Source: Anaerostipes caccae L1-92
Lineage (GTDB): Bacteria; Bacillota; Clostridia; Lachnospirales; Lachnospiraceae
Direction: 5' to 3'
Length of the DNA: 64,000 nucleotides
NCBI RefSeq assembly: GCF_014467075.1
Contig: NZ_AP023027.1
Location: forward strand, 3,447,501 to 3,511,500
Made by a program: the position numbers and the translations under genes. The notes beneath the pieces are model-generated. The model saw only the letters and a program-made list of their open reading frames with translations. It was not told the DNA's origin and searched no databases. Of the stretch, positions 34,907 through 53,849 are shown piece by piece; position 1 is the stretch's first letter, and each line of letters starts with the position of its first letter.

Positions 34907-34931
34907 GGAGGCAGTATCCTATGCTGCCCCC
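34907..34931 (-). terminator. Terminator of the family 5 binding protein gene
   Basis: GGAGGCAG (34907-34914) pairs with CTGCCCCC (34924-34931) with one mismatch; on the minus strand TTTTT follows. A second small hairpin (CTCTG/CAGAG) lies next to it at 34887-34902. Confidence 0.75.
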
Positions 34932-34950: not shown

Positions 34951-36528
34951 TTATTTTAACAGTTCACTGAAGGGCCGGTCAATATCCTTCACTTCTATCT
35001 TATGACTGCCATTTCCCACAGCAGCAAACTTTCTTTCTGTATATACCGGCATTGTAAGACTCTCATTGAGAATTTTTTCATCGATCTCTTTACACACTTT
35101 CCCTGCTTCTTTTAAATCTTCCGCCTTTTTAAGCCGGGCATTCAGACTTACAAGTTTCTCATCCTGAAAGTTTCTTTCGTCCAGAAACGCTCCCACTGAG
35201 GTCAGAGAAGGTATGGCTGCATTGCGGTAATAGAGGTCATAGTTTCCGGAATCCGTCGTCTTGACAATGATGCCTGCCGCTTTCATATCTTTGGTAAACT
35301 GCTGTACAAATAAATCCGCATACAGGATGCCGTCCGCTTTCAGAGTGAGAGACAACTCCTTTCCGCCTTTTTCAAAGATCCCCTTTTTATTCTTCTCATA
35401 CCCCGCATTTTTCAGACATTCCTCTGCCTTTTCCTTAGAGTAAGGATACATTTCCTTTTCCGCTCCGGCCATAAAGCTTCCTTCCTTAAAATTAGAAAAA
35501 GCTGCCTGCCCGCTGTCTCCCAGAGAGTCTGTCACAAATCTCTCTTTCTGAAAAGCATAGCAGACTGCCTGCCGCACTTCTTTTTTGTTTACTGCCGATT
35601 TGCTGTCCGATTTAAAATCCAAAACTGCCTGTACATCACTGCTTCCGTGATACAGGGTAATCACCCCGGATTTCTTAAGGCGGGAGATCAGGCTTTTGTT
35701 GGCCTGGAACTGTGTGATATCCACATTTCCCTTCGTGAGCATTGCCTCGATATTATTGCTGTTTATATTTTTGACAAGAATATTTTTCTCCTTGACTTTC
35801 CCGTCATAATAATTCGGGTTGGCTTCCAGAGTCATCGGAAGGTTGGCCGGCTGTCCCTTCAGCATAAATGCGCCGGTATATAAGTACTTGTTTTTTGCCC
35901 TGTTGGCCGTTCTGCCGATTCCTCCCGTAAACAGATACATATTGGCCGGGTCCGGCTCGGTAAAATGAAATACAAGCGTTGTATCATCCTTGACTTCAAT
36001 CCCTTCCATATCCTCTGACTGGGTCAGTTTATTTGAATCATAGCCTTTGAGCCTTGCAAAACAGTCACGGAAACCAAAGGAAGATCTCCCGTCTCCAAGC
36101 AGCAAAAGATCTTTTTTCACATCGGCGGCGGCAAGTTTTGATCCGTCACTGTATTTCAGTCCGTCCTTTAATCTGACTGTATATGTTTTCCCTTTCGAAG
36201 AAACATCGATGTCTTCTGCCAGGATATAATCTATTGAGCCGTCCTGCTTAATCCTGATCAGAGGAGAAAACAAAAGATCGGAAAGGGTCTTCTCTCCTGA
36301 ATATTCTGCAAACGCCGGATGAAGGCCTCCCTGGTAGTTCTGGATACCTACTGCAGTTTCCTCTCTTTTTTGTCCCGCAAGTTCCTTTTCCGCTTTGTAA
36401 AGCACCTCTGCGGAATCTTCTCCACTGTTCGTCATAAAATATACGGCAATCCCCAGGATCACCGCGGCGGCAAAGGCCACGGCCACTCGATTTCTCTTTT
36501 TCTGTAAAAAGTCTTTTGCCTTTTCCAA
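34951..36528 (-). CDS. Family 5 extracellular solute-binding protein, membrane-anchored
   Basis: 525 residues from a TTG start (complement of 36526-36528), supported by AGGAGGGAG 4 bases upstream. One N-terminal membrane segment (about residues 15-32) without a lipobox, so the protein is probably tethered by an uncleaved helix. The body is a peptide/nickel-binding (SBP family 5) fold: LSDLLFSPLIRI, YTVRLKDGLKYSDGSKLAAADV, and a C-terminal region typical of peptide binders. No permease or ATPase genes are nearby, so it is an orphan receptor or uses a shared transporter. It is immediately downstream of the giant surface protein but separated by a terminator. Confidence 0.85.
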   Translation of the reverse strand: MEKAKDFLQKKRNRVAVAFAAAVILGIAVYFMTNSGEDSAEVLYKAEKELAGQKREETAVGIQNYQGGLHPAFAEYSGEKTLSDLLFSPLIRIKQDGSIDYILAEDIDVSSKGKTYTVRLKDGLKYSDGSKLAAADVKKDLLLLGDGRSSFGFRDCFARLKGYDSNKLTQSEDMEGIEVKDDTTLVFHFTEPDPANMYLFTGGIGRTANRAKNKYLYTGAFMLKGQPANLPMTLEANPNYYDGKVKEKNILVKNINSNNIEAMLTKGNVDITQFQANKSLISRLKKSGVITLYHGSSDVQAVLDFKSDSKSAVNKKEVRQAVCYAFQKERFVTDSLGDSGQAAFSNFKEGSFMAGAEKEMYPYSKEKAEECLKNAGYEKNKKGIFEKGGKELSLTLKADGILYADLFVQQFTKDMKAAGIIVKTTDSGNYDLYYRNAAIPSLTSVGAFLDERNFQDEKLVSLNARLKKAEDLKEAGKVCKEIDEKILNESLTMPVYTERKFAAVGNGSHKIEVKDIDRPFSELLK

Positions 36529-36562
36529 CGTTCTCCCTCCTGTTGTCTTTGTCATTGAGAAA

Positions 36563-36602
36563 AACATCCACCACAAACTTAAAATCGCTTATGATGGATG
36601 TT
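36563..36602 (-). terminator. Terminator of the giant gene
   Basis: AACATCCA (36563-36570) pairs with TGGATGTT (36595-36602) around a long loop; on the minus strand it is followed by TTTTC. Located just after the stop of the 16.9-kb gene. Confidence 0.7.
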
Positions 36603-36607
36603 TTTTC

Positions 36608-39600
36608 TTATGCTTCTTCGTCCTTCCGTTTCTTTCTGTACAGGACAGCTGCTGCCCCGGCAGATGATGCGATCAGTATAATAAATATGAAAAGATTCCT
36701 GTCATCCCCGGTCCTCAGTACGCGAAGCGGACGTCTCGGCTGTCTCTTTTGTCTTGGTTCCTGCTTCGGAGTTTTCTTGTTTTCCTTATAATAAGGCACT
36801 TCCTCCTGTTTATAGAAGAATCCGAAGTCAATGCTCTCATCATCTTTTACCGTATTCAGATCAGCCACTTCCATCATTCTGTCTGCATCTTCCTCAAACC
36901 CCTGTTTCTCAGCCTCTTCTGCATTCAGCTTCAGCATTCTTGTGCTCACAAACTCGAATTCTTTTGCCCCGGCAATTCCCGTGATCGTCTCTTCTTCAGA
37001 AGGCTGTCCGTTTTCGTCCACGTACCAGCCGTCGCTGTCGGTCTCCTTGTCGTTTCCTGCAGTTCGTTTTGTGAGAAAGGCCTCATAAGGTGTCTCAGCT
37101 TCCACTTTATAACGGTAAGGTTTAAGATAATCTTTGGATTCCGGATTCAGGTCCGTCACCGGAACAGTAAACTTATAATGTCCATTCTTATCGGTCTTGA
37201 TACTGCTCGTTCCGCGGAGATCTTTCACCGTCTGCCATGTATCACCTTCTGCATCATAGCGGTAAAGATTCATCTTAACATTTTTAATGCCCCTCTCGCC
37301 TTCGTCCTGAATGCCGTTTTGGTTCTCGTCATTCCACACCTTATCTCCAAGGTTTACGCGGTTTTCATATTTAATGATACCGCAGTCCACCGTCTTTTCG
37401 TCCCGTGCAGTCACATAATCATAGAGATTTCCGTAGGCATCTTCTGACTCCAGCGTATTGACCAGAAGGAAACTGTTTGAGATAGCATGCAGCCGGTCAT
37501 CTTCGTCAAAGAGACCAAAATCACTGTCGATCTCTGCATTCTTTCCGTTTCCAACCTTTAAAAGGGTCAGATCCTCGTCGTTATTTTTCTTTGTGCGTAT
37601 CCGGTATTTTTCCGGAACTTTGAGTTCTTTGTTATAAACATCCAGATCTTTGAACTTAAAGACACCGCTGCTGTCAGTTTTTACAGAAGCTATCGTCTCA
37701 TAAGTGTCATCTTCCGGCATTACCGGCTCCTGATAGCTTCCGGTTCCGGTCCGGATCGTTCCATCCCTTCCTTTCTTTCTGCTCTTTGCCGTGGCAGGAG
37801 TATGATCGTCTGTCTCCTCCTTATTTTCCTCTTCCGGTTCTTCCGGAACGGGCTCCTCTTCTGGCACTACCTTCTTTTCCAGCCATACAGTCCTTCCCTT
37901 GACGGCTTTTTTGTTCTTTGACTGGAGGCCGTCTTTATCATCCGTGTCGTCCCATATGAGCCCCTCGATTTCTCCCTTGTCATAGGGAAGGAGTCCGATG
38001 TCATAGTCTCTGTCAAAGACCGCATTTAATGTGTCATAGTACTTATTCTGGTAAGAGATCACCGTATTCTTGTTGGCCTCTGTGATGTCCTCTTTCTTAA
38101 TCTCCTCTGCCAGAATGATATACGGAATCTTAGCGTCTTTTACGCGTCCGTCGGAATAGAGATTACTGTCTTTCGTCTTATCCTTTCCCTGGGCTGCTTT
38201 TGTATAAATATACCCTTCTTTCATCTCCGGAACGCTTAAACGGTAACCCATCAGATAATCAATGTCCGGTCCCCCGTCGAAAGAGACTGCCGCAGTCACC
38301 GGAAGATTGGAGAAGAAATATGCGCCTTCCTCAGATGATATCGTCTCCTTGTCATATTTCTCAATCCTGATCCATTTGTCCTGATCAGAATCATAATAAT
38401 AAGCTTCCAGTTTTACTTTGATGTCTTTCAGCGGTTTCTCTGTTTCGTCCTGAATACCGTTTCTGTTCTTGTCATCCCAGACATAATCACCGATGTATCC
38501 TGCTTTTGCCAGCACCAGGCCAAAATTGATTCCGTCGCAGACCGCATATTGTTTGCCGTCATTGTCGTATACCGGCCGGCCGGTGTTTTCATCGGTCGGA
38601 ATAACCGCTTTAAAATTCTCAGTTTTGGCAATGTTTTTATTTCCGGAAACGATCATCGTTCCATCATTGTCATTGCTGTATTTCAGCGGATTCTTTGTGA
38701 GCCGCACCGGCGATGTCTTCATTAACTGTCCGTCTATGCTCAGATCTTCCACGGTAAAGTAGTATTCCCTGTTCGGCCAGAGCATGTCAAAACGATACAC
38801 ACCGTCTGCGTCTGTCATTACTTCCAGAGGTTTTCCGTCCATTCCCACGGCTGGGGAATGATTACCCTTCTCATAAGCAGTGACCTTTACTCCTTCCAGA
38901 AGCTTTTCGCCCGGATCGATCTTTCCGTTGAAGTCTGTATCTTCATGATTCTGTCCGTCATCATCGATCAGGTCTTTCCAAACGATACCTTTGTAGCGTA
39001 CCGGCTTCGTGACTCCGATATCCGCATCCACAGCCTGTTTGTCATAGGCCTTTACAGCCGCCTCGGAAGACAGGTCAATAGCCTTTACGCCAAAGCTGTC
39101 GGTAGTATAAGTCTCCGCAGTCAGACCATTATCTCCTTTATGTCCGATAGAAACCTTCGTGTTAGTCTTGGTAATCGGCGTGGAGAGCTGATAGTCGTCA
39201 TATTTGTTCGGCATTGTAAATCTCAGGCGGTATTTGCCCGGCTTCAGATTTGCAATAATGTAATAGCCCTGGTTGCCCCAGTAATCGCTTCTGGTTACAG
39301 TGGAATAAGGCTTCTTCTTTGTCGTCACAGTTCCGTTGTATTCATCCAGCTTCACATCTCCTGTCGTCTCATCCATGACGTAATCCTGGCCATTTTTATT
39401 AATCACGGCCTCGCCGTCTACATTGCACGGATTTCCACTCTCCGTCAGGAGTTCGACTTTGACTCCGTTGATTCCCGGATCGTCGGCCTTTCCGTCTCCA
39501 TCCAGATCTGTGGTCCATTTGCTTGGAAGCATTCTTCCGTTTTTGGCCTCTTTGTACTCGGCCTCATCCTGCTTTCCGTTGCCGTTTAAGTCATTCCACA

Positions 39601-42600
39601 CGTAATCACCCACATATCCGCGGCCTGTTGGTGCCTGGAGCACGACTCCTGATCTTGCGGAGTCAACCGGAGCATCCCGTTTTGCCCAGAAGGCGAAGGT
39701 ATTCCAGCCTACAAACGGATCGCTGTCGTTTCCATTTTTAGCTGCATCCGCGGAACCCTTCATAAACGGAAGGTTCAGAGGAGCTTCCATGTCATATTTC
39801 AAAACATAGCTGGTAGCAGGGCCAAAGTCCGCAGTCGGATCTTTAAACCGCACCATAAACATTCTGACGCCCTTGCGGATTTCTTCTATGTTGTCAGGAT
39901 TTGCACTTATCAGATCTTCTGCCTTTACAAAATGCTGATTTAACTTCGTCTCGTCATCGGCAATGGCCTGATAGTATTCTTTTGTACTTCTCTCGTTTAC
40001 ATCCGGCATATCCTTCATGTCATACAGAGCGTAGCTTCCGTCGGCATTCTTCTTCACCGGTCCCACATACACATCATACTTTCCTGCATCCAGCGTGTGG
40101 GTTCCTCCCGTATCCGCTTTTTCAATCCTGAAGCTGTCTAAATCGATCCAGCCGTTCCACTTGGACTCACGGGTCAGAGATGTATAGGAACCGTCGGCGT
40201 TTTTGCTTCCTGTAATGGCCTTGTCACCGTCATACGGCAGCACATCAAAGAAAATTGGAACGGAGTAGTTGGATGTTGTATCGGTATTGGTCAGGATATC
40301 TGAGAATGTATAATTTCCTCCCTCCTGTACCGGCAGCGGCTTGGTGTTCAGCAGGTAAGAGTCATCCACATCTGTGACGACCTTCTTGCCTCTGGTCAGT
40401 GTGCTGAATGCCTCAAATGCAATATTATTGCTTGAAATTGCCAGATTCTTATCGGTCTTATTGCTGTCATCGTTGACATCTGAGACATCGACTCTCAGAG
40501 AAGCCTGTTCCTCGTCCTCGTCATCTGTGATGAAGAACCGGAAGGAACCGTCTTTCGTTCCGTATACTTTTGTGGTCATATCTTCCAAAGGTACTCCGAT
40601 GTTTGGCTCCCGAATCTCGTATGTGTAGTCGATGACAATCTTATCTCCCGGCGCTAAATCGTTGTCAAACCTCCAGGTCACCAGGTTCCGGTCTCTGCTC
40701 GTATCAACCGCTTTCCGGTAAAATACCGGTGATCCCTCTTTCAGCTTCAGCTCTTCCATATGCGGCGCCAATGTCTCATCCTCTGCATTTATGATGCGCC
40801 ACGTCCAGTAAAACCGGTTCTGTGTATCGGCATTCTTTGCTGAATAATCCGGATTAAGCGGGCAGTCTTTGTCACTCATCACCTGGTCATACGGCACATA
40901 GTCAAACTTCATTTCATCGATGTTGGCAATGAACGGAAGTCCTACCGTGAGTTCCGGCCTGGACATATTGTCCTCTTTGGATTTCTCCGGATCGTCGGAC
41001 GGCAGGTTCATCATCTCGTCACTGGCATTGATCAGCTGTACCGTCTGTTTCAGTTTAGAACTGTTCTTCAGGTTGATCGCGATGTTTTTATCCCACTCAT
41101 AGGAAATATTCTTGTCTGCGTCCACATGTTTTTTCAGATACAGCAGATTCTGTTTCAAATCCATGCTCGGATTCTGGGAGGAAATCTCCACTCCTGCCCG
41201 GTCATCCTGGGCTGTAAGCCCTGCATACTGTGTATCGCTGTATTTGCCCCATCCGCTCACAAAGAAGCTCGGGAATTTACTGATTTCTGTCTGCTCTTCC
41301 AAACCGACCTGAACGGCGATCTGCAGCGCATTTTTGTTGACACTGTCCGTAAAGGAATCTGCATGCATCTTGTCGGTCTTATATCCGTTGTTTTCTGCTT
41401 TCTTCTTTTCTACGGCAGAGACATCTTCTTTGTCTGCAGTACTGTCATCCGCATCCAGATCCAGCCGGAACCCCTGAGGTACCGGATAGTGTGCCGGATC
41501 GTCGGAAGTGACGATCCAGCGCATCTCGTCGACGGCTCCTTTTTCAGAATATTTTTTGAGAGCCCCCGTCAGTTCGATCACCTGGTTTTCATCAATTTTT
41601 GCTCCGTCCGGATTCAGGCGCACCCAGTTCATATCTTTGTCGGTCTCGTCTGTGACGTTAGAGCTTCCGCTGTCAATATCCAGGACTTCTACATAAACTC
41701 TCAGGTGTTTTCTGAGTTCGCCAATATCAACATTACACTTCGTATCGGCCGGAATCTCCCATTTTCCTGTCTGGACCCGCTTGACAGAGACAGCGATCCT
41801 TGGATCAGTCGGCTCTGCCGGTCCGTTTTTCACAGTGTTCGGAGCCCGGTTTGGAATCTTATACTGGACGATGAACTGATTGAGGTTGCCCTTATGCACA
41901 GTAGCCTCATCGACCAGTAAGGTAAATACGTCTTTTGTCTTATAGAGTGCATCGGAAGACCGGATATCCTGAGTGATGTCATCCTTTTGGTAAATTCTCC
42001 TTGGGTCTTTTGTGTCTGTGCGCATAGAAACCGAAGGTTTTGTCACTCTGATTCCGGCAGCCTTTGCCATGCTGTACCGCTCATCGAAGATTCCGTCGAA
42101 GTCATAATCATTTTCCTGGCTGTCTTTCACCTGGTTTGTGTAGCTGACCGTCTCGATTGGACGCTCTTTGAAATTACCGCCCGGCACGAAGTCTCCGTCC
42201 ATGCGGTGAAGATCAAGGTAGCTGGACTCTGAATTATACTGCCAGTAATCCGGATCTTTCAGAATATCTTCCGGTTCCGGAAGCTCTGCAATCCTGGATC
42301 TCAAAAACAGTGTAAAGTCTTTGCCCGATCTAAGCGCTCCTGACGGCAGCTTTCCTTTATGGATATTCCCGGAAGTAACATCTGCTTCCTGTCCCGGAAT
42401 AATATTCGCCAGAATTTCCTGGTGATCATAGTTTCCGTCCTTGTCTTTCACCTTTTTTACTTCCAGCTGTATTTTCCAGCCTTTGTTTTTGGACGGATCA
42501 CTGCTTTCCAGATCTGACTGGTTCAAGGTCTGTTTGATGCCGTCCCGGTCCACATATTCGATATAGTAACTTTCCAGATCGCCGCTGTCATCATAGACCA

Positions 42601-45600
42601 GTGCTTTCGGGAGCGTGTGATTAACCGTAAAGGCTGAATGTGTTATATCCCCTGTTGTACCGTAATCAGTCAGCGGTCCCCAGTACCCTGACCTCTCAGC
42701 CGGAGTATTGGCCGCTTTCAGCTGATACCACAGATTGTCGCCATAGGCAAACTGGATCGGAGCCAGTTTTGCCGGGCTTCCAGTGTTATTTTCCGGCTCT
42801 GCGGAATAATATGTTCCTGTTCTGCTGCCGGAAATGCCTGCGGTCAGACTGATTCTCGGATTTTTCGAATACAGGCTTGCTGTATTCATGACTCCATGAT
42901 CCTGAAGCACGGCTTCTTCCGCGCCGTCCCCAGTTTCTTTCTTTCCATCATAGTTAAGGTCTGTGTATTTGTCTTCTCCGTTTCCGGTCTGCCAGAACAG
43001 CAGGGAATCTGCCAGTCCTGTATCCTGAAGACTGATCTTGTCGCCTTCAAAATAAGGAGTCATCCGGCCAATCGCCCTGTCTGCCATCGCCTTGTTGTCA
43101 TATATGGTTTTTCCTGTGCGGTACGTGCTGTACGTATAATCCGGGCTGACTGCATCCAGACGCGGGTCCTGATTATAATAGCCCTGATTTGTGTCCACGC
43201 CGACCGCATAGCCTGCGTTTTCGCCGCCGATCTGTTCGTCCGTGATATATCGGAAAAGATTATGCTGGCTTCCCAGGTAGACTCTCGTGCTGTCCCAATC
43301 CTTTGTCTTATCCGCATCATCCGGCCAGTTTCCGGCGTAATCTGCTGCAATTACATTCATTTTTATGTTTCTGGACCGTCCTGAGAGCACTCTGACATCC
43401 TCTGTGGAGGTTCCTGCTTTCGGAACAAACCGGATCACATACCGTTTTGCCGCTGTTCCGTCGTCATCCACATCCATATACCGGATCTCTGTGTCAAACT
43501 TGGATTTTAAATCAGCCGGCAGGTCCGGATCTGTGTCGGCAGCCAGTCTGCCTCCGGAAGACCAGACTTTCTGTTCCATTTCCCAGTCAAAGTTCTGTAC
43601 AACTGATCCATCAGAATCTGCATGAATCACTTCACCGTCTTCATCCACAGGCTGTACGCCATAAGGAAGCACAACGGTCACAACCGGTTTAAACAGGGTT
43701 CCCCTGGCTCCTCCGTTCGTAGTGTAGTTATAGCTTCTTCCGCTGTCGGCACCGCTTCCGTTTCCGTGGTGATAGTCTGACAGGATATACTCATTTTCCA
43801 GGCGGACATTCAGCTGTTTCACCTCTGTCTCTGCCTGAGCATACCACTGGTCAGCACTGAGGACGTCATTTTCATCCCTCCTGCCGTATTCCGCCCAGAA
43901 ACGGACCAAAGGTTTCCTCTGTTTTGCCCTCGTTCCGGTGACCGCATATTTGGTGGAGTCTGTACTTCCGTCTGAAGCTTCAATGTTAAATCCTATATCT
44001 TTTCTGTCCACTGCCTGAGAATAAGTATTCCTTCCCTTCAGGTAAAGAGGCCACGGTGAGAGCAGATTATAGTAGGCTTCTGTATTACAGTATGAGCAAT
44101 ACCAAATACCGGTTTCCAAATCATTGCACTGAACAGTTCCGCTTTTGTTTGCCTCGGACATATCCATGCTGTCGTTCTTGTCATAAATCTGGTGATACAT
44201 CGTATTCGGAACTTCGCTGTCCTTGGATTCTATATCGACCGGCCGCACATACAGACGGTCATACCACATTTCATTCATGTTCTCTTTGAACACTTCGGAT
44301 TTAAATTCTACAGACATCTGGTAATGCTGCTGTTTGGATGCATCCAGACTTCCTCTGTTCCAGAACCGCGTAAGTTTCTCCGGTACTGTAATTCGGATCA
44401 CCCATGCTTTTGAATCTGCATCTGCTGCATTATATGTTTTTCCGGTATATGCTCCGTTATGCACAGGGTCTGCCAGTTCTTTCGGCGCAAGAGCGCCGAT
44501 ATCCGTATCTCCCGGCTGCTGAAGTATCTTAATATTTTCTTCTGGAACAGTAATCTTTGTACCGTCCTTCATTTCGGCCTTCACTTCAAGTCTGCCGTCT
44601 TTCAGCACTGGTCTTGTACCTCTTGGCATCACGTAAGTAAACTCCGCTCCGTCTGTGTCCCAGTCTCCATAGTTCAGCGCATAAAGCCTTGTTACATAGT
44701 TTTCTTCAGCTTCCAATGCCGCAGTCTGCTGGTCGTAGTTTGGAACGTCATCTCTGTGTCCGGAACCGCCGGAATAATTGATATCTGCCTGATCGTAGTA
44801 TTTTTGATCCGTTATCATATCACTGCTTCCGGTAATCCACGCTTTCTGCAGATGCAGTGCATGTTCTGCCCAGATAATATTGTGGTATTCATCACCAATG
44901 ATGTTCTTCCATTTATTCATATTGGCAGAGCCCGTTCCGGATACGACCCTTCCGGATGTGAGATACCTGTAATAGGCACTGTCCGTGCCTCCCCCTCCGG
45001 CACCGGTGCGGTAGGATACAGCTGAGGCCTCTTTGGACGGGTCTGTCACAGTCATATTTGTGAAACACATCTGCCTGGAAGAAGAATTGATATCATAATC
45101 AAAAAATCTGCCTCCGTCACTGGTCGTCTGGCCCGGAATATATGCATAAGAATCCGTCAGGAATTCTCCCGGATCAATGCCTTTTCCGGGTGTTCCGGTA
45201 ACTCCGAAATCATGGATCAGATTATCCATATCCATAGCTTTTGCGGCTGTATTGTTTGCATTCGGCGCAGGACCGTCTGCATATTCTCCATAGCGCGGAA
45301 GGTATGCGTTTTCTTTTGTATCCTTCCATGATGCCATCGGCAGGTCTTCTTTTCTCGCCTTGGTCTTATAGACGATCTCGATCCGTTCGCCTCTGGACAG
45401 CTCCTGATCACCGAAGTCGTATTTGTAGATCTTAAAGTTAATTTCCTCTGCAGGATTGTTCGCTGTATCTGTCGGCTTCCTGTCTGTGCCTGAAGTCACT
45501 TTTTCAAATTCCTGACTTCCTCCGATATCAAAATCTTTCATGTCAGTCACCGTGACTGCTGGTTTTTGGTAAGCTGAAGAATCCTTCGCATGTCCGTCCT

Positions 45601-48600
45601 TGTCATACCATATGATTTCAACATCATCCGGATTTGGTGCATCTACATATTCCGGAATCTTGTCATAGAGCACCGGATGATCAAGGGCCCCTCTTCTGGC
45701 ACTGTCGTCTGTGCGCTTGTTCCAGGCAGTCAATTTATACCAAAAACTTTCATTCGGTCGGTACACTGCTTTGTTTTTGCTGTTATTTTCAGCATAGGCG
45801 CTCTTTGCGTCTTCTTCTTTGTCAAACGCCTGGACGTCTGCCAGCATATTCGGCAGCAGCCGGTATACGGTAAATGTATTCTTTGTATCTGCCAGCAGAT
45901 GGGCTTCCATCTTGTCATCATCTGACACTTTATAGTGTTCATGGCCATAGTCAATATCCAGAATACCATTCATTGTACTGTAATTTTGGTTGACAGAAGA
46001 TGCTCCGTTTTCATCCACGTAGTTCGCCGTTCCATGAAGAATGACATCCGGCATTTTATAAATATTTGTACCATCTTTGGCAGGAACATCCTCGTAGACC
46101 CATTTGATCTGCTTTACTTTTTTCAGGTTGCTGTCATCAGACCGGAAGGACGCATCCATGGCTTTCCAGTGTGTGTCCCCGTCTTCTTTATAGTAAAAGA
46201 CAGCCTGATGTTCTGTTCCCGCAACCGTATATTTTGCCTCCGGCCATTTTCTGAGGTAGAAATTCTGTTCATTTTTTACTGTCTGGTTGGAGAGGTCAAT
46301 TTCAATTCCTGTTTCCTTAAGATCATGCATCGTATTGTTTTTAATGTCGGAAACCGTCAGATCTACATCCATCAAATCATTGACCCATGCCGTTCCCCCT
46401 TCCACAGAAGATGGATTGGAAAACTTCATTGCAGGTGTTCCCGCATCCATATAAGAAACAGAACTTGTAAGCTCTCCTGTCGGCACAGGTGTATTATTCA
46501 GTGCCAGATCGACGGCAGAGCTGTTTTCCACACAGCGTTTAATGAAACTGGCGCTTCCAAACGCATCGCTGCACCATGAGGAGTAAGAATAGGTCGGATT
46601 CGTGTCTCTGTTTCCGAAATAATATGGGTAATAGTGATTTCTCTGACCGCCTCCCGCATAGACGCTTGTATTCACTGTTTTTCCTTCAAATGCTCCGGAA
46701 AATTCATCCTTCGCCTCCAGAACAACAGTCACAGTATAGTCTTTGTTCAGTTTCAGATACTGGTCTCCATGATCTGTATCGGTTGTAATCACCAGATTCC
46801 GGTATGTATTTTTTGATTCCGGTGCCTCCAGTGCACCATTTACCACAGGTGTCCTCGTTGATACAGAACTGCTGTTGTCTACAAATTCACCCTTCAGATC
46901 TCCAATGCCCGAATCTGTCTTTTTCGCATACTTCCATCCCACGATCTTCATTCCTACAGGTGCCGTCACCCGAACCGCCGGATTTTTAAACGGCGTATTC
47001 GTCTCAGAACCGTCAGACTCCTTTTCGGATTTGTTGGAAACCGTCACCTGATATTCAATTCTGTCGCCTGGAATGATATGATCCTTATCTACCTCCAGTT
47101 TTATTCCGTCTTTTTCATCATACGCAGGAGATTTCGTCTCTTCATCCTCCCGCTTCTGTTTCATTTCCACATGGGAAACTCTGTTATAAACTGTTTGATC
47201 GGCATGGGGAGCGGCAGTTATCGTACTCTGCTGATAACCGAATGTAGCTGATTCTGCCTTAAAATTCTGAATGCTGTTTCGGATGTAATAAGTGTAGAAA
47301 TAATCATGTGTACCGCTTCCTCCTATGGTAGGCACAGAATTCTCGTTCCACTCATCCTTTTCCAAATCTTCTTTTGTCCGGTCCACAAAGATTCCGTCGT
47401 AGATAATATCCTCTAATGCCTGGCCCGGTCTCAGGAATTTTTCATTCTTGTTTCCATCGGTTTCCTTGGCCTCAATTTTTACAGTAAAACTTTGGATATA
47501 ACATTTTGTAAATTCTGTACCACTTATTGTATAGGTGGATGTATTTAAGGCATCGTCCCCCACGAATAGTTTGGAGACATCTAAAACATAGTATTCTTCA
47601 TCATTGATTGTCTCCAGCCTAAACTTGTCTTTTACGTCCACTCCTTTATCATCACCGGAGTGGGTTCCGTCATTGATCTTGAACTGAGTCACATTCCACT
47701 TGTCAGAGTCAAAGACACTTTTCGGAATCTTAATTGTCTGAAGCCGGAACCGGCTGTCAAGAGCCTGGTCAAAGGCAAAACCGCTGATATCTGCGTCCCT
47801 GGATTCAGAGTTGGCAGGATCGCTGCCTCCGTCGTCTGTACCGGCGTTTTCCAGATGGATGGTAAACGCTGAAGACTCCGGCTTCATTTCCGGTTTACCG
47901 GCATCAAGTTTGGATGCCTGATAATCCCATCCTTTTGTATTGTTGGCAGTCAGCTTATAACCCGGCTTCAAAGGAATCCTTCTTGCCAGCAGAGTACCCG
48001 TCTCTGTGTTTCCTTCGATTACTGTATTGACCGGATCATAGTCTTTAAACGTCTTGGTGTTAACCGTATTGACTCCGGCATTATTTCCGTCGCCGTTCAG
48101 CGCCAGTATTTCACCGTAGATGTTGATCATCGGTTCCGTGCGGTTGTCAAATACCGTGTCTTTGGATATTCCGTCGATCTCAGTCTTGCTGAAATCACCG
48201 TCACCGGCAATGTCCTTGACAAACAATTTAACCTTCGTAAGATACTGTCCGGAATTCAGAACGATATCTTTTCCGTCCACAGCTTCTCCCGCGTTGTCCT
48301 CTCCTTCATAAAACACCCTGATCTCTTTATAATCTGCGTCTGCTGCATCGCTGAAATCCGCTGCTGCTCTTTTTACTGTGCTTCCGTCGGAAAGCGTCAG
48401 CATAATATCCCCGTCTGTCCGGTTCAGCAGTTTTTTCTTGATCTGAACAGACGTACTCTTAAATCCTTTATACTCCCCGTCACTTTTTGTGATCGGAGGA
48501 AGTGTGTCTTCCAGCACCGCATTGTCGATATACGGATAATAGCCGCTCCAGTTTCCGGAAGCCCCGGTTTTGTCCCGGTAGAAAGACATGCTGTAACATC

Positions 48601-51600
48601 CGGTTGCACCATATGGATAGGACTCTTTTCTGTCCGTCTCGGGATGCAGGTTGACTCCTTTTAGAGAGTACATTCTTGCATCGTCATAGACAGTGATCGG
48701 CACTTCCGATCTCATATGTCTTGCTGTGTATTCCTGTGAACCGGTATAACTTCCATACCAGTCATATGTATAATAGTAGTTTTTAAATGACCAGCCGGAA
48801 CGGTAGCTGCTGTTCTTCGTAGTGTCTGTATTTTCAGTTTTTATTTCGGTTTTCGTTCCGTCAGGTTTTTCAGTGCCGCCGATCGTCATTTCTGTCTCTG
48901 CAGAGGCCTTATAATTTCCAAGTTTATAATACCTTCCCACAAATTCGAAGGTATTTTGTGTATTTACATTGCTTTGGTTATACCATGTGCCGTAATCCGG
49001 TGATTTGGCAGTTTTTACGCCTCCGATCTCCTCGTATTCCTGCTGGTTAACAGAAAAACGAATCTCTGCTTTTTTGACCGCCTCTTTCCCGTCCGGCTCT
49101 TCTTTTGGATGACGGTAGTAGTTCCCTTCTTTTTCTGCCTCGTAATTCGGCTCCCCGTCCAGAAGATTGATTCTCCAATATCCATTCTGTCCGTCCCAGC
49201 TCTTGGCATTTTCATTGGCAGCCCAGACCGCCTTCGGATCATCGATCGTATAGGAAGATCCATCAGCACGGTATAATTTAATCTCTTTTACATAGTCCTT
49301 TACTCTCGGATCCACTTTCAGATAGTATGTCTCAAAGCCCTCAGACGGAAGATTCACTGTCATCTTCAGATCTGCCGGTGTATTGTAGGCATAATTCTTT
49401 ATCTGATATCTGCTGTATGCAGAATCATTATACTGCTCCTGATTATTGTGTCTTTCCGGGGGCCCGCTGCTGTAATCCTGCAGGTACTGTCGGAAATCGA
49501 CTCCGATACTGCCGACCGCTTTATAGCCGATCTCAAGATTCGTATCATCACTGTATCCATAGCTTGAACGGTAATGCTCGGAAGGCTCTGCACCATTATT
49601 ATATCTGGTTGTTTTATTATCCGGCGTTACAAATTGTGCGTCTACGACCGTATCAAAATACATCGGGCTGATCATCAGCCTTGCCGCATCCTGATTCGTA
49701 AGTTCAAAGGACCTGTCGGTGGTATAGAGTTTGCTCGTAATTTTTGCAGCCGCCTGATTAACCTTGCGCATTTCAATGTCGGAAAATCCGGTTACTTCGA
49801 TGGACTGTGACGCTTTCGGCACCTTCCCGCCTTTCATTGTCCCTCCGGTCACCTCGATCCCGCTAAGAATTCCCAGATCCTTAACGCTGCTTTTCGGAAG
49901 TTTCCAGCCCTCTCCTTCTAAAGTATAGGTCTTGGAAGGCTGGCCCTTTTCTTTGAATGTTTTGGCATCCTTGTCATAGACAAGAGTTAAGCTGCCTTCG
50001 GAACCTGTCACTGTAATTTCTTTGACATCGGCAATATCCAGAAGCTCTTTCCTGATCAGTACAGACTTTGCATAAAAACCTTTTCCTGTCTCGGCAGAAA
50101 GCTGGTTGGCGGAATTTAATTCCGTAAAATCGATCACCGTATGGAAATCATGTGCATCATTTGCCGCACTGTTTCCAAACCAGAAGGAAAAGGAAGCTTC
50201 CTTTTCATAAGGAACCGCAAGCCCCATCACATTGCCGTCCACCATACTGCCGTTGTTTTCTGTATTGATCTCTGTCTTATCATAGTATGGATTTAAATGT
50301 GCATTCACTTCAGGCTTCGGATTATTGACATTCATTGTCATGCCCGCTGTCTGAGCAGGTTTGTTCATGTTCAGCGCATCTTTGCATGCCCATTCACCCC
50401 TGAAAGAAGCCGCGCCGTAAAAGTCTGCGGTTCCGCCTACGGTGATGTCCAGTTTCTCCGCAGTTTCCATTCCGTTAAACGGCTCAAATATAATCCTTAC
50501 ATATTTCAGTCCGTTTGCCATAGAACTTTTCCACAAACTCTCAGGAATCGTAATCAATCCGTCTTTTTCTGCCGGGATCTGATCCGCCGGGAGAACAAAA
50601 TCCGGCTCCTTGGAGTTTCCTGCATAAGTGTTGTTGGAAATATCATAAAATTCTATTTTTGAAATCTTTCCGAATTTTTTCAAATCTTTGATGGTGATCT
50701 CATCTGCCAGGAATCCCACCGTCTTTTCATCGACCACATTTGTCGGCAACGTCATCAGAAATTCCCCGGGGTTCATTTCTGAGTGTGACTTATTACCTAT
50801 ATGGAACACAGCCTTAGCACTGTCTTCATTATATGGCACCGTAATGGATGTCAGATTGGATGCCTGCGGATGATCCGGCTCATTGTAGACATTTCCTGTG
50901 ATGGCCGGATTCACCCCTTCAATCGTGATCGTCCCTGTCCCTGTCTTTGTCACAGAGCTCGTGGATGTCCCCGGATAGTTTGTGGAAACTGTACCGGTGG
51001 CGGTAAGGGAACCATAATCCTTTAACGTTCCCATAACCTTCAGATAGGTCTCCGCAGCCAGTTCATCTCCGTTTACAATTTTCTGGTCTCCGGCAAAATA
51101 GTCGTATTCAATCCTTACACTTTTAAGGTTATCTAAATCGCCCTTCCACAGACTGCGTTCAATCACCACATTTCCGTCGCCGTCTGCGTAGCCCTGAACG
51201 AGCGTCTTCAAAGAGATTTTCTTTGTCTGGTTATTCACATCTTTAAGAATGAGATTTCCGGACGGATATTGCTGATCTTCTTCGCTCGTTCCCACAGAGA
51301 CATTGATCATGGCATCCAGAAGATCCTTTTTCAGCAGGATATTTTCTGTCACATATCCTCTGTCATTGGCAGCTCCCGGTACATCCAGCTGAAGATATCC
51401 GGGCGCGATCGGCCCTTTTGACTGGGTTCCTGCCCTCAGAATATACCCGTCCATGCCCTGGCGGTTGTATTTTCCGTATACTGTCTGATGATACGGTGAC
51501 CGGCTGCTACCGCCTTCGGTCACTGCTGCCTGGCTTTCCCCTTCTTTCTTTTCTGTATGTACTGCTGTGACGACAGTGTCGATTTCAGGAGGAGTCAGTA

Positions 51601-53494
51601 CCATATCTGCCTGGATCTTGTACGGCTCCTGCTCCTTGACCATCCATTCGCCTTCCGTATCACCGTCGCCAACTTTGTAGTATTTGTAGTCAAACTGGAT
51701 TTCTGCTTTATTCTGAATCGTAACGTTGTTTTTGGGATAACCGCTGATCACGATCTTGCCTGGCAGTGTAGTTCCGGCATCTATCTTTTCTTTCAGATTC
51801 ACACGGACTCTTCCCGTGGCATTGCCGGGAAGCCTGCCTTTAATTCCTGAGATTCCCCACCTCACTTCATCATCGGTACTCTTCTCTGTCACACTCTGGG
51901 TAAAGTCAATCCATTGCTTTTCTCCTGTAGCGGAATTGGTAACCTCATACTGGAACGGATGCTCCTTCGCCAGAAACTTTTCTATTCCGCCGTCTGCATC
52001 TTTTTTCGGAACCTCATAAAACAGTCCGTCCAACATAAACTGACCCGGCACCGTATCTGTCACTCTCGGTGAAAACAGCGGGATATTCCCTTTATTTGTA
52101 ATGCTCTCTATATAAAATTCGGATAAGCTGTTTACATAAACGTGTTTATTATACGGAGCTTCTGATTCTGAAACTTTTTTCGCAGAGTAATCCGGCTGCG
52201 GCTTCATAAAGGTAGCCGTAGCTGTATTTGTCTTAGACCAGTAAATCTCCGGTTTTCCAAAAATAATCGTGGATACCAGCTTCGTCTGAAGTTCGTTGGT
52301 CGTGCTGCTGCCCTTAAACTGAATATTGTTTGTGAACGGCAGCCTTACCAGAAACTTAGCCTGGTGGTGCAGGTTTTTATCCGGGTGTTCTTTTGCGTAG
52401 TTTGGAGAGTGTATTTCTTCTTCATGAATGACTGCAATCTGACCGTTTCCGGTATAAGAATAAGGGATAGGTTTTCCAAGCTTCCCATCTTTGATCTCTT
52501 CATCTGTCAGATCTGTGACATCGTAGACGAGAACACCTCCCTTATCCTCTTTCCCGATAAACTCCGTGTTCTTCCATGAATTTGGATTGTTCGGCTCTGT
52601 ATTTTCGATGATCTGCCCGTCTTTATAAATCCATTTTGTGATATCCCGTGTAAAGATCCCGTCTACCCCGCCTTCGGAGGAGCAGAACGGAAGCTCAAAC
52701 ATCAGGTTGATCTTATCAAATGAAACATCTTTCGGACCGTCCTTATCCTCTGACTCTGAGGTGTTTTTAACTGTAACATAGTGATCGGCATAATTATACT
52801 CTTTCCATACCGGAATGGCAGGGGAGTCTTCAAACACCGTCTCCCATGAAAGATTCGTGTTTACAAACACTTTAATTGCATTTTCATCTACCCCGGGAGA
52901 TTTCCATTCGTCCGCGATCTTATTGCCGTTCTTATCGTAGTACTCCTGGTAAGATGAGCTTCCGGTAATCTTTCCCTGTGTTTTCTCAGGCACATCTCCG
53001 AAAAACTTCACCTTAATACGGAAGGTCAGAGATTCCCCGGCCTTCAGGTCATTGCTTGCTACAAATACGATCTTGCCTTTATAAACTGTGTCCTGGTCAA
53101 ATGCCTTTCCCTCCACTGTCTGCCAGCTGTCCGCCTCTATGACGTTGGCCTGCATTCCAAGCTTTACATCCTCCGGATTGACATTCTCATCATAAACCTG
53201 GAGATTTCCGTCGCTGTCATAGAAAAAAGACGGCAATGCGACGGTGACTTTTGCTCCTTTTGCATAGCCGGAAGACGTGGCTGTGACATTGACCTGTCCT
53301 GTCAGTTCTTCAGATGCCCCGTTTTTAAGCATCGTAACATTGGTCCCCGGCTCCTGCTTACAGGAAAAGCTGACCTGCAGCCCCGGCGACTCATCTGCTT
53401 TTACATTTTTAATAATTGCTGAAAAATTTGGACTCTGTACCACCATTAAAAGTGACAGAATGATAGAAATGATCTGCCTAATGCGTTTTTTCAT
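36608..53494 (-). CDS. Giant secreted, cell-wall-anchored SdrD B-domain protein (5628 residues)
   Basis: One uninterrupted frame of 5629 codons. Residues 1 to about 33 form a signal peptide (KKRIRQIISIILSLLMVV, probable cleavage after VKA). Most of the protein (about 35-4600) is beta-rich, rich in Asp, Asn, Thr and Tyr, with stretches resembling DUF11-type surface domains (DRIEYQVTVSNKSEKESDG near 2120; SFWYKLTAWNKRTDD). At least five SdrD B-like domains lie at about 4630, 4850, 5005, 5170 and 5385, each with G-D-x-V-W-x-D-x-N-x-N-G-x-Q-D-E or a variant that binds calcium in relatives. The end is a sorting signal: VLRTG, hydrophobic span, RKKRKDEEA. It should act outside the cell as a long adhesin or wall fibre. 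GGGGGAACGGAG precedes the ATG. No sortase is in the window. Function beyond the surface location is inference. Confidence 0.9.
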   Translation of the reverse strand: MKKRIRQIISIILSLLMVVQSPNFSAIIKNVKADESPGLQVSFSCKQEPGTNVTMLKNGASEELTGQVNVTATSSGYAKGAKVTVALPSFFYDSDGNLQVYDENVNPEDVKLGMQANVIEADSWQTVEGKAFDQDTVYKGKIVFVASNDLKAGESLTFRIKVKFFGDVPEKTQGKITGSSSYQEYYDKNGNKIADEWKSPGVDENAIKVFVNTNLSWETVFEDSPAIPVWKEYNYADHYVTVKNTSESEDKDGPKDVSFDKINLMFELPFCSSEGGVDGIFTRDITKWIYKDGQIIENTEPNNPNSWKNTEFIGKEDKGGVLVYDVTDLTDEEIKDGKLGKPIPYSYTGNGQIAVIHEEEIHSPNYAKEHPDKNLHHQAKFLVRLPFTNNIQFKGSSTTNELQTKLVSTIIFGKPEIYWSKTNTATATFMKPQPDYSAKKVSESEAPYNKHVYVNSLSEFYIESITNKGNIPLFSPRVTDTVPGQFMLDGLFYEVPKKDADGGIEKFLAKEHPFQYEVTNSATGEKQWIDFTQSVTEKSTDDEVRWGISGIKGRLPGNATGRVRVNLKEKIDAGTTLPGKIVISGYPKNNVTIQNKAEIQFDYKYYKVGDGDTEGEWMVKEQEPYKIQADMVLTPPEIDTVVTAVHTEKKEGESQAAVTEGGSSRSPYHQTVYGKYNRQGMDGYILRAGTQSKGPIAPGYLQLDVPGAANDRGYVTENILLKKDLLDAMINVSVGTSEEDQQYPSGNLILKDVNNQTKKISLKTLVQGYADGDGNVVIERSLWKGDLDNLKSVRIEYDYFAGDQKIVNGDELAAETYLKVMGTLKDYGSLTATGTVSTNYPGTSTSSVTKTGTGTITIEGVNPAITGNVYNEPDHPQASNLTSITVPYNEDSAKAVFHIGNKSHSEMNPGEFLMTLPTNVVDEKTVGFLADEITIKDLKKFGKISKIEFYDISNNTYAGNSKEPDFVLPADQIPAEKDGLITIPESLWKSSMANGLKYVRIIFEPFNGMETAEKLDITVGGTADFYGAASFRGEWACKDALNMNKPAQTAGMTMNVNNPKPEVNAHLNPYYDKTEINTENNGSMVDGNVMGLAVPYEKEASFSFWFGNSAANDAHDFHTVIDFTELNSANQLSAETGKGFYAKSVLIRKELLDIADVKEITVTGSEGSLTLVYDKDAKTFKEKGQPSKTYTLEGEGWKLPKSSVKDLGILSGIEVTGGTMKGGKVPKASQSIEVTGFSDIEMRKVNQAAAKITSKLYTTDRSFELTNQDAARLMISPMYFDTVVDAQFVTPDNKTTRYNNGAEPSEHYRSSYGYSDDTNLEIGYKAVGSIGVDFRQYLQDYSSGPPERHNNQEQYNDSAYSRYQIKNYAYNTPADLKMTVNLPSEGFETYYLKVDPRVKDYVKEIKLYRADGSSYTIDDPKAVWAANENAKSWDGQNGYWRINLLDGEPNYEAEKEGNYYRHPKEEPDGKEAVKKAEIRFSVNQQEYEEIGGVKTAKSPDYGTWYNQSNVNTQNTFEFVGRYYKLGNYKASAETEMTIGGTEKPDGTKTEIKTENTDTTKNSSYRSGWSFKNYYYTYDWYGSYTGSQEYTARHMRSEVPITVYDDARMYSLKGVNLHPETDRKESYPYGATGCYSMSFYRDKTGASGNWSGYYPYIDNAVLEDTLPPITKSDGEYKGFKSTSVQIKKKLLNRTDGDIMLTLSDGSTVKRAAADFSDAADADYKEIRVFYEGEDNAGEAVDGKDIVLNSGQYLTKVKLFVKDIAGDGDFSKTEIDGISKDTVFDNRTEPMINIYGEILALNGDGNNAGVNTVNTKTFKDYDPVNTVIEGNTETGTLLARRIPLKPGYKLTANNTKGWDYQASKLDAGKPEMKPESSAFTIHLENAGTDDGGSDPANSESRDADISGFAFDQALDSRFRLQTIKIPKSVFDSDKWNVTQFKINDGTHSGDDKGVDVKDKFRLETINDEEYYVLDVSKLFVGDDALNTSTYTISGTEFTKCYIQSFTVKIEAKETDGNKNEKFLRPGQALEDIIYDGIFVDRTKEDLEKDEWNENSVPTIGGSGTHDYFYTYYIRNSIQNFKAESATFGYQQSTITAAPHADQTVYNRVSHVEMKQKREDEETKSPAYDEKDGIKLEVDKDHIIPGDRIEYQVTVSNKSEKESDGSETNTPFKNPAVRVTAPVGMKIVGWKYAKKTDSGIGDLKGEFVDNSSSVSTRTPVVNGALEAPESKNTYRNLVITTDTDHGDQYLKLNKDYTVTVVLEAKDEFSGAFEGKTVNTSVYAGGGQRNHYYPYYFGNRDTNPTYSYSSWCSDAFGSASFIKRCVENSSAVDLALNNTPVPTGELTSSVSYMDAGTPAMKFSNPSSVEGGTAWVNDLMDVDLTVSDIKNNTMHDLKETGIEIDLSNQTVKNEQNFYLRKWPEAKYTVAGTEHQAVFYYKEDGDTHWKAMDASFRSDDSNLKKVKQIKWVYEDVPAKDGTNIYKMPDVILHGTANYVDENGASSVNQNYSTMNGILDIDYGHEHYKVSDDDKMEAHLLADTKNTFTVYRLLPNMLADVQAFDKEEDAKSAYAENNSKNKAVYRPNESFWYKLTAWNKRTDDSARRGALDHPVLYDKIPEYVDAPNPDDVEIIWYDKDGHAKDSSAYQKPAVTVTDMKDFDIGGSQEFEKVTSGTDRKPTDTANNPAEEINFKIYKYDFGDQELSRGERIEIVYKTKARKEDLPMASWKDTKENAYLPRYGEYADGPAPNANNTAAKAMDMDNLIHDFGVTGTPGKGIDPGEFLTDSYAYIPGQTTSDGGRFFDYDINSSSRQMCFTNMTVTDPSKEASAVSYRTGAGGGGTDSAYYRYLTSGRVVSGTGSANMNKWKNIIGDEYHNIIWAEHALHLQKAWITGSSDMITDQKYYDQADINYSGGSGHRDDVPNYDQQTAALEAEENYVTRLYALNYGDWDTDGAEFTYVMPRGTRPVLKDGRLEVKAEMKDGTKITVPEENIKILQQPGDTDIGALAPKELADPVHNGAYTGKTYNAADADSKAWVIRITVPEKLTRFWNRGSLDASKQQHYQMSVEFKSEVFKENMNEMWYDRLYVRPVDIESKDSEVPNTMYHQIYDKNDSMDMSEANKSGTVQCNDLETGIWYCSYCNTEAYYNLLSPWPLYLKGRNTYSQAVDRKDIGFNIEASDGSTDSTKYAVTGTRAKQRKPLVRFWAEYGRRDENDVLSADQWYAQAETEVKQLNVRLENEYILSDYHHGNGSGADSGRSYNYTTNGGARGTLFKPVVTVVLPYGVQPVDEDGEVIHADSDGSVVQNFDWEMEQKVWSSGGRLAADTDPDLPADLKSKFDTEIRYMDVDDDGTAAKRYVIRFVPKAGTSTEDVRVLSGRSRNIKMNVIAADYAGNWPDDADKTKDWDSTRVYLGSQHNLFRYITDEQIGGENAGYAVGVDTNQGYYNQDPRLDAVSPDYTYSTYRTGKTIYDNKAMADRAIGRMTPYFEGDKISLQDTGLADSLLFWQTGNGEDKYTDLNYDGKKETGDGAEEAVLQDHGVMNTASLYSKNPRISLTAGISGSRTGTYYSAEPENNTGSPAKLAPIQFAYGDNLWYQLKAANTPAERSGYWGPLTDYGTTGDITHSAFTVNHTLPKALVYDDSGDLESYYIEYVDRDGIKQTLNQSDLESSDPSKNKGWKIQLEVKKVKDKDGNYDHQEILANIIPGQEADVTSGNIHKGKLPSGALRSGKDFTLFLRSRIAELPEPEDILKDPDYWQYNSESSYLDLHRMDGDFVPGGNFKERPIETVSYTNQVKDSQENDYDFDGIFDERYSMAKAAGIRVTKPSVSMRTDTKDPRRIYQKDDITQDIRSSDALYKTKDVFTLLVDEATVHKGNLNQFIVQYKIPNRAPNTVKNGPAEPTDPRIAVSVKRVQTGKWEIPADTKCNVDIGELRKHLRVYVEVLDIDSGSSNVTDETDKDMNWVRLNPDGAKIDENQVIELTGALKKYSEKGAVDEMRWIVTSDDPAHYPVPQGFRLDLDADDSTADKEDVSAVEKKKAENNGYKTDKMHADSFTDSVNKNALQIAVQVGLEEQTEISKFPSFFVSGWGKYSDTQYAGLTAQDDRAGVEISSQNPSMDLKQNLLYLKKHVDADKNISYEWDKNIAINLKNSSKLKQTVQLINASDEMMNLPSDDPEKSKEDNMSRPELTVGLPFIANIDEMKFDYVPYDQVMSDKDCPLNPDYSAKNADTQNRFYWTWRIINAEDETLAPHMEELKLKEGSPVFYRKAVDTSRDRNLVTWRFDNDLAPGDKIVIDYTYEIREPNIGVPLEDMTTKVYGTKDGSFRFFITDDEDEEQASLRVDVSDVNDDSNKTDKNLAISSNNIAFEAFSTLTRGKKVVTDVDDSYLLNTKPLPVQEGGNYTFSDILTNTDTTSNYSVPIFFDVLPYDGDKAITGSKNADGSYTSLTRESKWNGWIDLDSFRIEKADTGGTHTLDAGKYDVYVGPVKKNADGSYALYDMKDMPDVNERSTKEYYQAIADDETKLNQHFVKAEDLISANPDNIEEIRKGVRMFMVRFKDPTADFGPATSYVLKYDMEAPLNLPFMKGSADAAKNGNDSDPFVGWNTFAFWAKRDAPVDSARSGVVLQAPTGRGYVGDYVWNDLNGNGKQDEAEYKEAKNGRMLPSKWTTDLDGDGKADDPGINGVKVELLTESGNPCNVDGEAVINKNGQDYVMDETTGDVKLDEYNGTVTTKKKPYSTVTRSDYWGNQGYYIIANLKPGKYRLRFTMPNKYDDYQLSTPITKTNTKVSIGHKGDNGLTAETYTTDSFGVKAIDLSSEAAVKAYDKQAVDADIGVTKPVRYKGIVWKDLIDDDGQNHEDTDFNGKIDPGEKLLEGVKVTAYEKGNHSPAVGMDGKPLEVMTDADGVYRFDMLWPNREYYFTVEDLSIDGQLMKTSPVRLTKNPLKYSNDNDGTMIVSGNKNIAKTENFKAVIPTDENTGRPVYDNDGKQYAVCDGINFGLVLAKAGYIGDYVWDDKNRNGIQDETEKPLKDIKVKLEAYYYDSDQDKWIRIEKYDKETISSEEGAYFFSNLPVTAAVSFDGGPDIDYLMGYRLSVPEMKEGYIYTKAAQGKDKTKDSNLYSDGRVKDAKIPYIILAEEIKKEDITEANKNTVISYQNKYYDTLNAVFDRDYDIGLLPYDKGEIEGLIWDDTDDKDGLQSKNKKAVKGRTVWLEKKVVPEEEPVPEEPEEENKEETDDHTPATAKSRKKGRDGTIRTGTGSYQEPVMPEDDTYETIASVKTDSSGVFKFKDLDVYNKELKVPEKYRIRTKKNNDEDLTLLKVGNGKNAEIDSDFGLFDEDDRLHAISNSFLLVNTLESEDAYGNLYDYVTARDEKTVDCGIIKYENRVNLGDKVWNDENQNGIQDEGERGIKNVKMNLYRYDAEGDTWQTVKDLRGTSSIKTDKNGHYKFTVPVTDLNPESKDYLKPYRYKVEAETPYEAFLTKRTAGNDKETDSDGWYVDENGQPSEEETITGIAGAKEFEFVSTRMLKLNAEEAEKQGFEEDADRMMEVADLNTVKDDESIDFGFFYKQEEVPYYKENKKTPKQEPRQKRQPRRPLRVLRTGDDRNLFIFIILIASSAGAAAVLYRKKRKDEEA
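36611..36721 (-). other. Cell-wall sorting signal of the giant protein
   Basis: Last 37 residues: VLRTG, then DDRN, a 19-residue hydrophobic span and the positive tail RKKRKDEEA. The layout is that of a sortase substrate, but the usual Pro of LPxTG is Leu and the first Leu is Val. Confidence 0.75.
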
Positions 53495-53605: not shown

Positions 53606-53634
53606 ATTGTATGCCCATCGAAAGATAATGTCAA
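53606..53634 (-). promoter_or_regulatory. Promoter of the giant gene
   Basis: Minus strand TTGACA (complement of 53629-53634), 17-base spacer, TACAAT (complement of 53606-53611). The leader would be about 105 bases. The region 53658-53760 between this and the rml terminator is AT-rich with nothing recognised. Confidence 0.8.
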
Positions 53635-53657: not shown

Positions 53658-53760
53658 TTTAATAACAATTCCGCCTTTTATTTGTGCACTATGTACAGAA
53701 TTTTAAGATGATTTATTTTACACTCTACTTTGTTAAAACCCCAAAAAATATAATAAAAAA

Positions 53761-53794
53761 GCCAATGTACAGGATGGTTAGCCCATACATCGGC
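53761..53794 (-). terminator. Terminator of the rml operon
   Basis: GCCAATGTA (53761-53769) pairs with TACATCGGC (53786-53794) with one mismatch, then on the minus strand TTTTTT. Downstream of rmlC. Confidence 0.8.
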
Positions 53795-53849
53795 CTTTCT
53801 ATATTTTTGTCTATATTTCCTATCATACCGCTATGATAACAAATGTCTT

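Follow-up and report, generated by a model that had tools for sequence, protein, structure and literature searches.

A 5,628-residue surface protein of Anaerostipes caccae, probably a sortase-anchored fibre, and the solute-binding protein gene linked to it

Giant surface proteins are often viewed as fast-changing repeat arrays. A 64,000-nucleotide stretch of the Anaerostipes caccae L1-92 genome (the window; GC 44.5%, within a single contig of 3,590,719 bases) holds a gene for a giant protein of 5,628 residues, and raises the question of how so long a chain is exported, folded and anchored, and whether the product of the linked SBP_bac_5 gene, a solute-binding protein (SBP), helps. In our reading the giant is probably a sortase-anchored fibrillar surface protein in which an SdrD_B stalk carries many Ig-like modules of old origin, with the linked SBP as an accessory. 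A. caccae is a butyrate-forming bacterium of the human gut (PMC8063638), and the fibre may bear on how butyrate-forming gut bacteria hold on in the gut.

The minus-strand frame is open from ATG to TAA, confirming the single intact frame of the sequence-only reading, which had named no strand. The plus strand carries many stops over the same interval, and, given the window's base composition, chance would produce an open run of this length with a probability near 10^-140. A ribosome-binding-like stretch, agggggaacggagttATG, precedes the start. The gene and its two ends are as follows:

36608..53494, minus strand: giant surface protein gene (5,628 aa, 630.8 kDa, pI 4.8)
53396..53494, minus strand: signal-peptide-like N-terminus (residues 1-33, MKKRIRQIISIILSLLMVV...KA/DE, read by eye without a predictor)
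36623..36712, minus strand: sortase-type tail (VLRTGD, a hydrophobic stretch and RKKRK)

The signal peptide and wall-sorting tail read earlier from the sequence were thus found again; in a genome scan the tail scored 21.5 bits against the LPXTG_anchor model TIGR01167, above its cut-off of 15.9. Recent foreign origin was rejected, since the GC content of the gene (0.464) and its GC3 (0.505) are close to those of five neighbouring genes (0.466-0.477 and 0.489-0.543). An assembly artefact was likewise rejected, because a syntenic orthologue is present in the single-contig genome (3,588,860 bases) of a congener, here called G009, probably A. rhamnosivorans.

The G009 orthologue has 5,627 residues and is 81.8% identical to the giant, with eight gaps comprising 15 columns. 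Comparison of the two genes gave a dN of 0.113, a dS of 2.07, which is near saturation, and a dN/dS of 0.055. Of 29 windows, each 200 codons long, 9 had a saturated dS, which makes the ratio meaningless there. Seven other genes were compared with their G009 counterparts: five gave dN/dS values of 0.016-0.043, and the SBP gene and a methyltransferase-like gene had saturated dS. These substitution rates indicate that the giant is under purifying selection, somewhat looser than that on its measurable neighbours.

Relatives of the giant are few. A contig search with the window protein alone as the query found none. Residues 2700-4700 as the query matched 4 of 299 genomes of the taxonomic family, and a core profile (A2) matched 4 of 397, the A. 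caccae genome included both times; the same profile matched that genome only among 391 genomes of the class and 378 of the phylum. Within the genus, the giant is present in 2 of 11 Anaerostipes genomes. Together with a scan of named genomes, whose loci are a lower bound, these searches give at least nine loci in eight Clostridia genomes: A. caccae, G009, G200, G300, G107 (two loci, G107a and G107b) and, added by the scan, L075 (an Oscillospiraceae metagenome-assembled genome, MAG), L077 (Intestinibacillus massiliensis) and L078 (an uncultured Ruminococcus MAG). The frames encode 7,311 residues in G200, 12,125 in G300, 9,429 in G107a and 10,103 in G107b; within the fetched stretches, at least 6,342 are readable in L075, 6,757 in L077 and 9,282 in L078. 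The A. caccae and G009 proteins are the shortest complete members among these loci.

The frames are open over the stretch read, rather than split or full of stops, except for a frameshift that precedes the main frame of G107b and gaps of N in L077. In the former (L072, 7902-8861), a 255-aa open reading frame (ORF) with a signal peptide, out of register with the 10,103-aa frame, extends up to it across a low-complexity stretch, and the break is either a sequencing error or a real frameshift. In L077, from position 20327, the N gaps occur together with an 884-nt copy (99.9%) of the giant's end and giant-like matches past the SBP gene; this duplication is probably a mis-assembly or mis-scaffolding. 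The G107 genome carries two giant-SBP-sortase loci, on contigs C1 and C2, whose giants share about 36% identity along most of the chain.

Compared over a core of some 2,100 residues, all nine members are 23-39% identical outside two close pairs, A. caccae/G009 (85%) and G107a/G107b (44%). By BLAST, the order of matches is largely kept along the chains, cross-matches of SdrD_B repeats aside. In a four-sequence alignment, used to compare whole chains, the A. caccae giant can be aligned almost end to end with G200 and, from residue 1500 onwards, where the L075 contig starts, with L075, at about 20-39% identity per 250 residues. The ends differ in reach. A block at residues 1295-1305 of the A. caccae giant lies at about residue 1,450 in G200, 3,300 in G107a, 3,786 in G107b and 5,880 in G300, so that the N-terminal arm varies about 4.5-fold. 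From this block to residues 5220-5275 there are about 3,900-4,000 residues in A. caccae, compared with 5,240-5,540 in G107a, G107b and G300; G200 and L075 are extended at the wall end instead, through more SdrD_B-like repeats. Length is thus kept to one residue between two species with near-saturated synonymous sites, and domain order is kept at 23-39% core identity, which together suggest that the whole chain is under constraint. The earlier suggestion that the length is kept by selection was supported by the orthologue, its dN/dS and the collinear relatives. We saw no description of these giants in the titles and abstract openings of the open-licence PMC papers listed for this family or its carrier (preprints not covered), and the A. 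caccae protein apparently belongs to a rare, collinear, undescribed family.

Above its cut-off, Pfam recognises SdrD_B (159.3 bits, six stretches) and CarboxypepD_reg in the giant and nothing else, CarbopepD_reg_2 falling below. The best Pfam stretches and the four placed SdrD_B matches lie within residues 4628-5494, and SdrD_B has been called a stalk domain (PMC9210967). NCBIfam adds a DUF11-type repeat just under its cut-off; DUF11 and SdrD_B are both among the families predicted to form isopeptide bonds (PMC12617251).

38153..38497, minus strand: SdrD_B domain (residues ~5000-5114, 56.3 bits)
37013..37354, minus strand: SdrD_B domain (residues ~5381-5494, 64.1 bits)
38747-38944 and 39557-39613, minus strand: further SdrD_B matches
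47027..47092, minus strand: DUF11-type repeat match (residues 2135-2156; 23.9 bits, cut-off 24)

Residues 1 to ~4,600 have no placed Pfam match above cut-off, in agreement with the sequence-only reading that most of the first 4600 residues hold no nameable domain, and residues 1-2900 gave a single line below cut-off (Cadherin_3, E 0.12). Pfam scans of three relatives (12,066 of 12,125 residues of G300, 9,295 of 9,429 of G107a and 6,000 of at least 9,282 of L078) found above cut-off SdrD_B in G300 and G107a and CarboxypepD_reg in G300, in C-terminal pieces only; weak coiled-coil-type lines near the C-terminus of G300 stayed below cut-off.

TRF found no tandem DNA repeat within the gene, as had been read by eye. 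A BLAST self-comparison of the protein also returned nothing; contained matches may have been dropped, and profile self-comparison was used instead (2,239 of 2,278 window pairs). It revealed two adjacent diverged units and a weaker pair near residues 2540 and 3537 (65% probability). An iterated HMM of the 200-aa unit retained the A. caccae and G009 giants alone (E < 0.001, 60% coverage). The domains are strongly diverged, as proposed, and the repeats are decayed rather than absent.

50264..51490, minus strand: two diverged units of ~200 aa (residues 669-880 and 881-1077; hhalign self-comparison 97%)

Two AlphaFold models were made of stretches within residues 1-4600, with mean pLDDT of 38 and 44, and three segments stand out:

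48350..49681, minus strand: conserved block (residues 1272-1715, GYKxxxSxxVDFRQ-type signature, model mean pLDDT 44)
45347..45847, minus strand: possible Ig-like domain (residues 2550-2716)
44234..44710, minus strand: Ig-like domain of pilin type (residues ~2929-3087, 10-residue pLDDT means 24-84)

The conserved block is aligned in all nine members, the L075 contig beginning inside it. Residues 2550-2716 have 10-residue pLDDT means of 50-83, except for a poor loop at 24-25, and were matched solely in two-domain alignments to AgI/II C-domains, at an rmsd of about 8. Parts of both models have structural matches to Ig-like folds in pilins, AgI/II and PrgB, suggesting a likeness to AgI/II C-terminal domains and sortase pilins, whose folds are of the CnaA/DEv-IgG type. 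In contrast to this likeness of the models, nothing convincing came up when the profiles of both stretches were searched against the sequences of solved structures (a single chain, at E 0.87, for one stretch and none for the other). Viral scaffold and pore-forming proteins among the best Foldseek rows of the second model had low probability and were taken as chance. The proposal that much of the chain is undescribed fold space was not supported as worded: new folds are not demonstrated, because two low-confidence models look like the Ig-like folds known from pilins and adhesins of Gram-positives.

The next gene after the giant encodes the SBP:

34951..36528, minus strand: SBP_bac_5 protein gene (E 1.8e-45), with an N-terminal membrane-anchor-like stretch
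34881..34907, minus strand: terminator-like stem after the SBP gene (five such sites found, 1.8 expected)

Its likely start is the TTG at 36528, behind GGAGGGAG; the longest ORF begins at 36576. An SBP_bac_5 gene adjoins the giant in seven of the nine loci (A. caccae, G009, G300, G107a, G107b, L075 and L077), at a spacing of 5-98 nt in the six loci measured; those of L075 and L077 are readable only in part, and that of G009 is 72% identical to the window SBP. Within the genus, the SBP gene has the same distribution as the giant, being present in those 2 genomes of the 11. Lipoprotein anchoring of solute-binding proteins is usual in Gram-positives. Six of the seven partners have no Cys in their first 60 residues, which speaks against such anchoring, and by eye look like proteins with uncleaved membrane anchors; the L077 partner has one Cys.

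A sortase gene follows the SBP gene in three of the nine loci. Measured against the NCBIfam class B cut-off of 153.75, the G300 sortase lies above and the two G107 sortases below (129 and 136.6). Linkage to a peptidyl-prolyl isomerase (PPIase) is seen in one locus, G300, where the next gene after the sortase encodes an FKBP and Trigger_C protein with a lipobox-like start. In both the A. caccae and the G009 genome a single sortase was detected, and it lies far from the giant. Because the class B enzyme of A. caccae (TIGR03064, 199.4 bits) is the only sortase detected there, we pair it with the giant, conditionally. The class B substrate motif is given as (N/S/P)PXTG (PMC13257024), which VLRTGD does not match. 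At least 10 of 19 anchor-like matches in the A. caccae genome, the giant included, end in [KR]TG[DE] and a hydrophobic tail (SPKTGD, APKTGD, AKTGD/E, VSRTGD, VLRTGD), the usual proline being absent from 8 of the 10; judged from these tails, the recognition motif of the A. caccae class B sortase may be unusual.

We propose a fibre made of one chain: numerous Ig-like beta-sandwich modules, old and strongly diverged, with the SdrD_B stalk at the wall end and a long N-terminal arm projected away from the cell. The chain would be exported by Sec, as its signal-like N-terminus suggests, would be anchored through VLRTGD by the class B sortase, and might serve for attachment, whether to other cells, to food particles or to glycoproteins of the host. 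The SBP encoded downstream, which seems to be tethered to the membrane by an uncleaved anchor, would be part of the system. For its role we lean slightly, and tentatively, to an extracytoplasmic chaperone-like helper that holds the extended chain during export; a receptor for peptides gathered at the fibre is nearly as likely, and other roles take the remaining share. A more far-reaching version, which we consider unlikely, is a dedicated module for export, folding and anchoring, in which a membrane-tethered SBP_bac_5 protein co-opted from peptide uptake would hold the extended chain of 5,600-12,100 residues as it leaves Sec, with a class-B-type sortase added in some members and an FKBP/trigger-factor-like protein in one, for a fibre family that keeps its domain order over deep divergence and varies about 4.5-fold in N-terminal reach.

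Several observations weigh against the anchored fibre and its accessory. The tail scored 14.3 bits against TIGR01167, under the cut-off, in an hmmscan of a piece, its sorting motif is VLRTGD with LPxTG absent anywhere in the giant, and the G300 tail lacks a TG motif. No sortase adjoins the giant in the window, G009, G200, L075 or L077, with no sortase match on the giant's contig in G200, L075 and L077 as judged by contig number or length, and no SBP gene follows the giant in G200 or L078. The dN/dS of 0.055 is the highest among the six genes with an estimate. Pfam recognises no known adhesive domain in the giant. Both models are low in mean confidence; the matches of the first are mostly to one domain only, with low TM-scores, and three of its four Foldseek matches at E <= 0.001 are integrins, while the second has none at that threshold. 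No expression or proteome data for the giant were found. Finally, a strong terminator-like hairpin splits the giant from the SBP gene and the end of the giant contains a promoter-like site, so that co-transcription would need read-through and co-expression is not given:

36553..36612, minus strand: terminator-like hairpin and U run between the giant and the next gene (-26.5 kcal/mol, z -6.8)
36705-36678: promoter-like site inside the giant's end

Among the rival explanations, a nutrient-capture scaffold survives best: the fibre would collect glycoprotein- or peptide-rich material, and the SBP would serve uptake or sensing by binding metal chelates or the peptides set free. The partner does belong to a solute-binding family, its best NCBIfam scores (all far below cut-off) are to nickel- and oligopeptide-binding proteins, and class B sortases are described as mostly serving nutrient acquisition (PMC13257024). 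However, by eye no permease or ATPase genes accompany the SBP in the window, where the nearby amino-acid ABC genes own a binding protein and are set apart by a terminator-like stem, and none stands out by eye in the gene lists of G107a, G107b and G300 (no family search was made); nor did Pfam find a catalytic domain in the giant. We regard this explanation as rather unlikely; it is compatible with a fibre, and its odds do not exclude the sortase-anchored one proposed above.

The question of whether the giant is an ordinary large MSCRAMM/Sdr-type adhesin, with no special surrounding system, is best put beside other known surface proteins. Like SdrD and other staphylococcal MSCRAMMs, it has SdrD_B domains and a sorting tail, and SdrD, SdrC and Cna are among the structural matches listed. 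It is about four times as long as SdrD. The SD dipeptide repeat defines the Sdr/MSCRAMM proteins. The giant has none (no SDSD), and a Sdr protein of the S. aureus type was rejected for that reason; its sorting motif is also not LPXTG, and the collinear relatives in other genera and the linked SBP gene fall outside that description. This explanation is improbable.

Fibrillar adhesin (FA)-like proteins are defined by a stalk, an adhesive region and, usually, an anchor, the survey requiring for the adhesive region one or more Pfam domains out of 27 listed adhesive families (PMC8286594). What the giant has in common with them is its layout, one long chain with a surface anchor and putative stalk-type domains; its SdrD_B stretches and Ig-like structural matches fit a stalk, which would be rod-shaped. 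It differs in being mostly without Pfam match above cut-off and in its linked SBP_bac_5 gene, and we liken it to these proteins rather than file it among them because no adhesive domain was recognised. Giant1-5 of Apilactobacillus kunkeei, 3,000-8,000 aa in length, are likewise surface proteins and bear signal peptides, and Giant4 is mostly an array of beta-sheet domains (PMC12863079). They have features of their own, namely an N-terminal beta-solenoid (Giant1-4), alpha-helical repeats (most of Giant1-3) and a C-terminal DUF5776 (PMC12863079). In the A. caccae protein, by comparison, Pfam shows no DUF5776 at E <= 1, and the chain carries SdrD_B domains, some Ig-like matches and a sortase-type tail.

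A third rival is that the giant is no host adhesin but an S-layer-like protein or one of an aggregation/biofilm matrix. This would suit a huge, acidic (pI 4.8), partly Ig-like and surface-anchored chain in which no ligand-binding domain was recognised, but is just as improbable, since the patchy presence in 4 of 397 genomes of the family and 2 of 11 of the genus is unlike that of a main envelope component.

Four promoter-like sites were found where shuffles gave 3.1, and the one listed is weak alone:

53606..53634, minus strand: promoter-like site (TTGACA-17-TACAAT) upstream of the giant
53754..53801, minus strand: terminator-like stem between the upstream dTDP-4-dehydrorhamnose 3,5-epimerase gene and the giant

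Large SdrD_B-like proteins distinct from the giant are encoded in two more Anaerostipes genomes, in open frames of 3,110 codons (L010, genome G003) and 3,442 codons (L012, genome G007), the SdrD_B-like match of G007 being below cut-off. Elsewhere in the window (62710-63963, minus strand), a 417-aa protein has a Hint/intein-like C-terminal stretch, with Intein_splicing, Vint and PT-HINT as its best Pfam lines (E 5e-4 to 3e-3, all below cut-off); a 204-aa protein follows it, and both are syntenic in G009.
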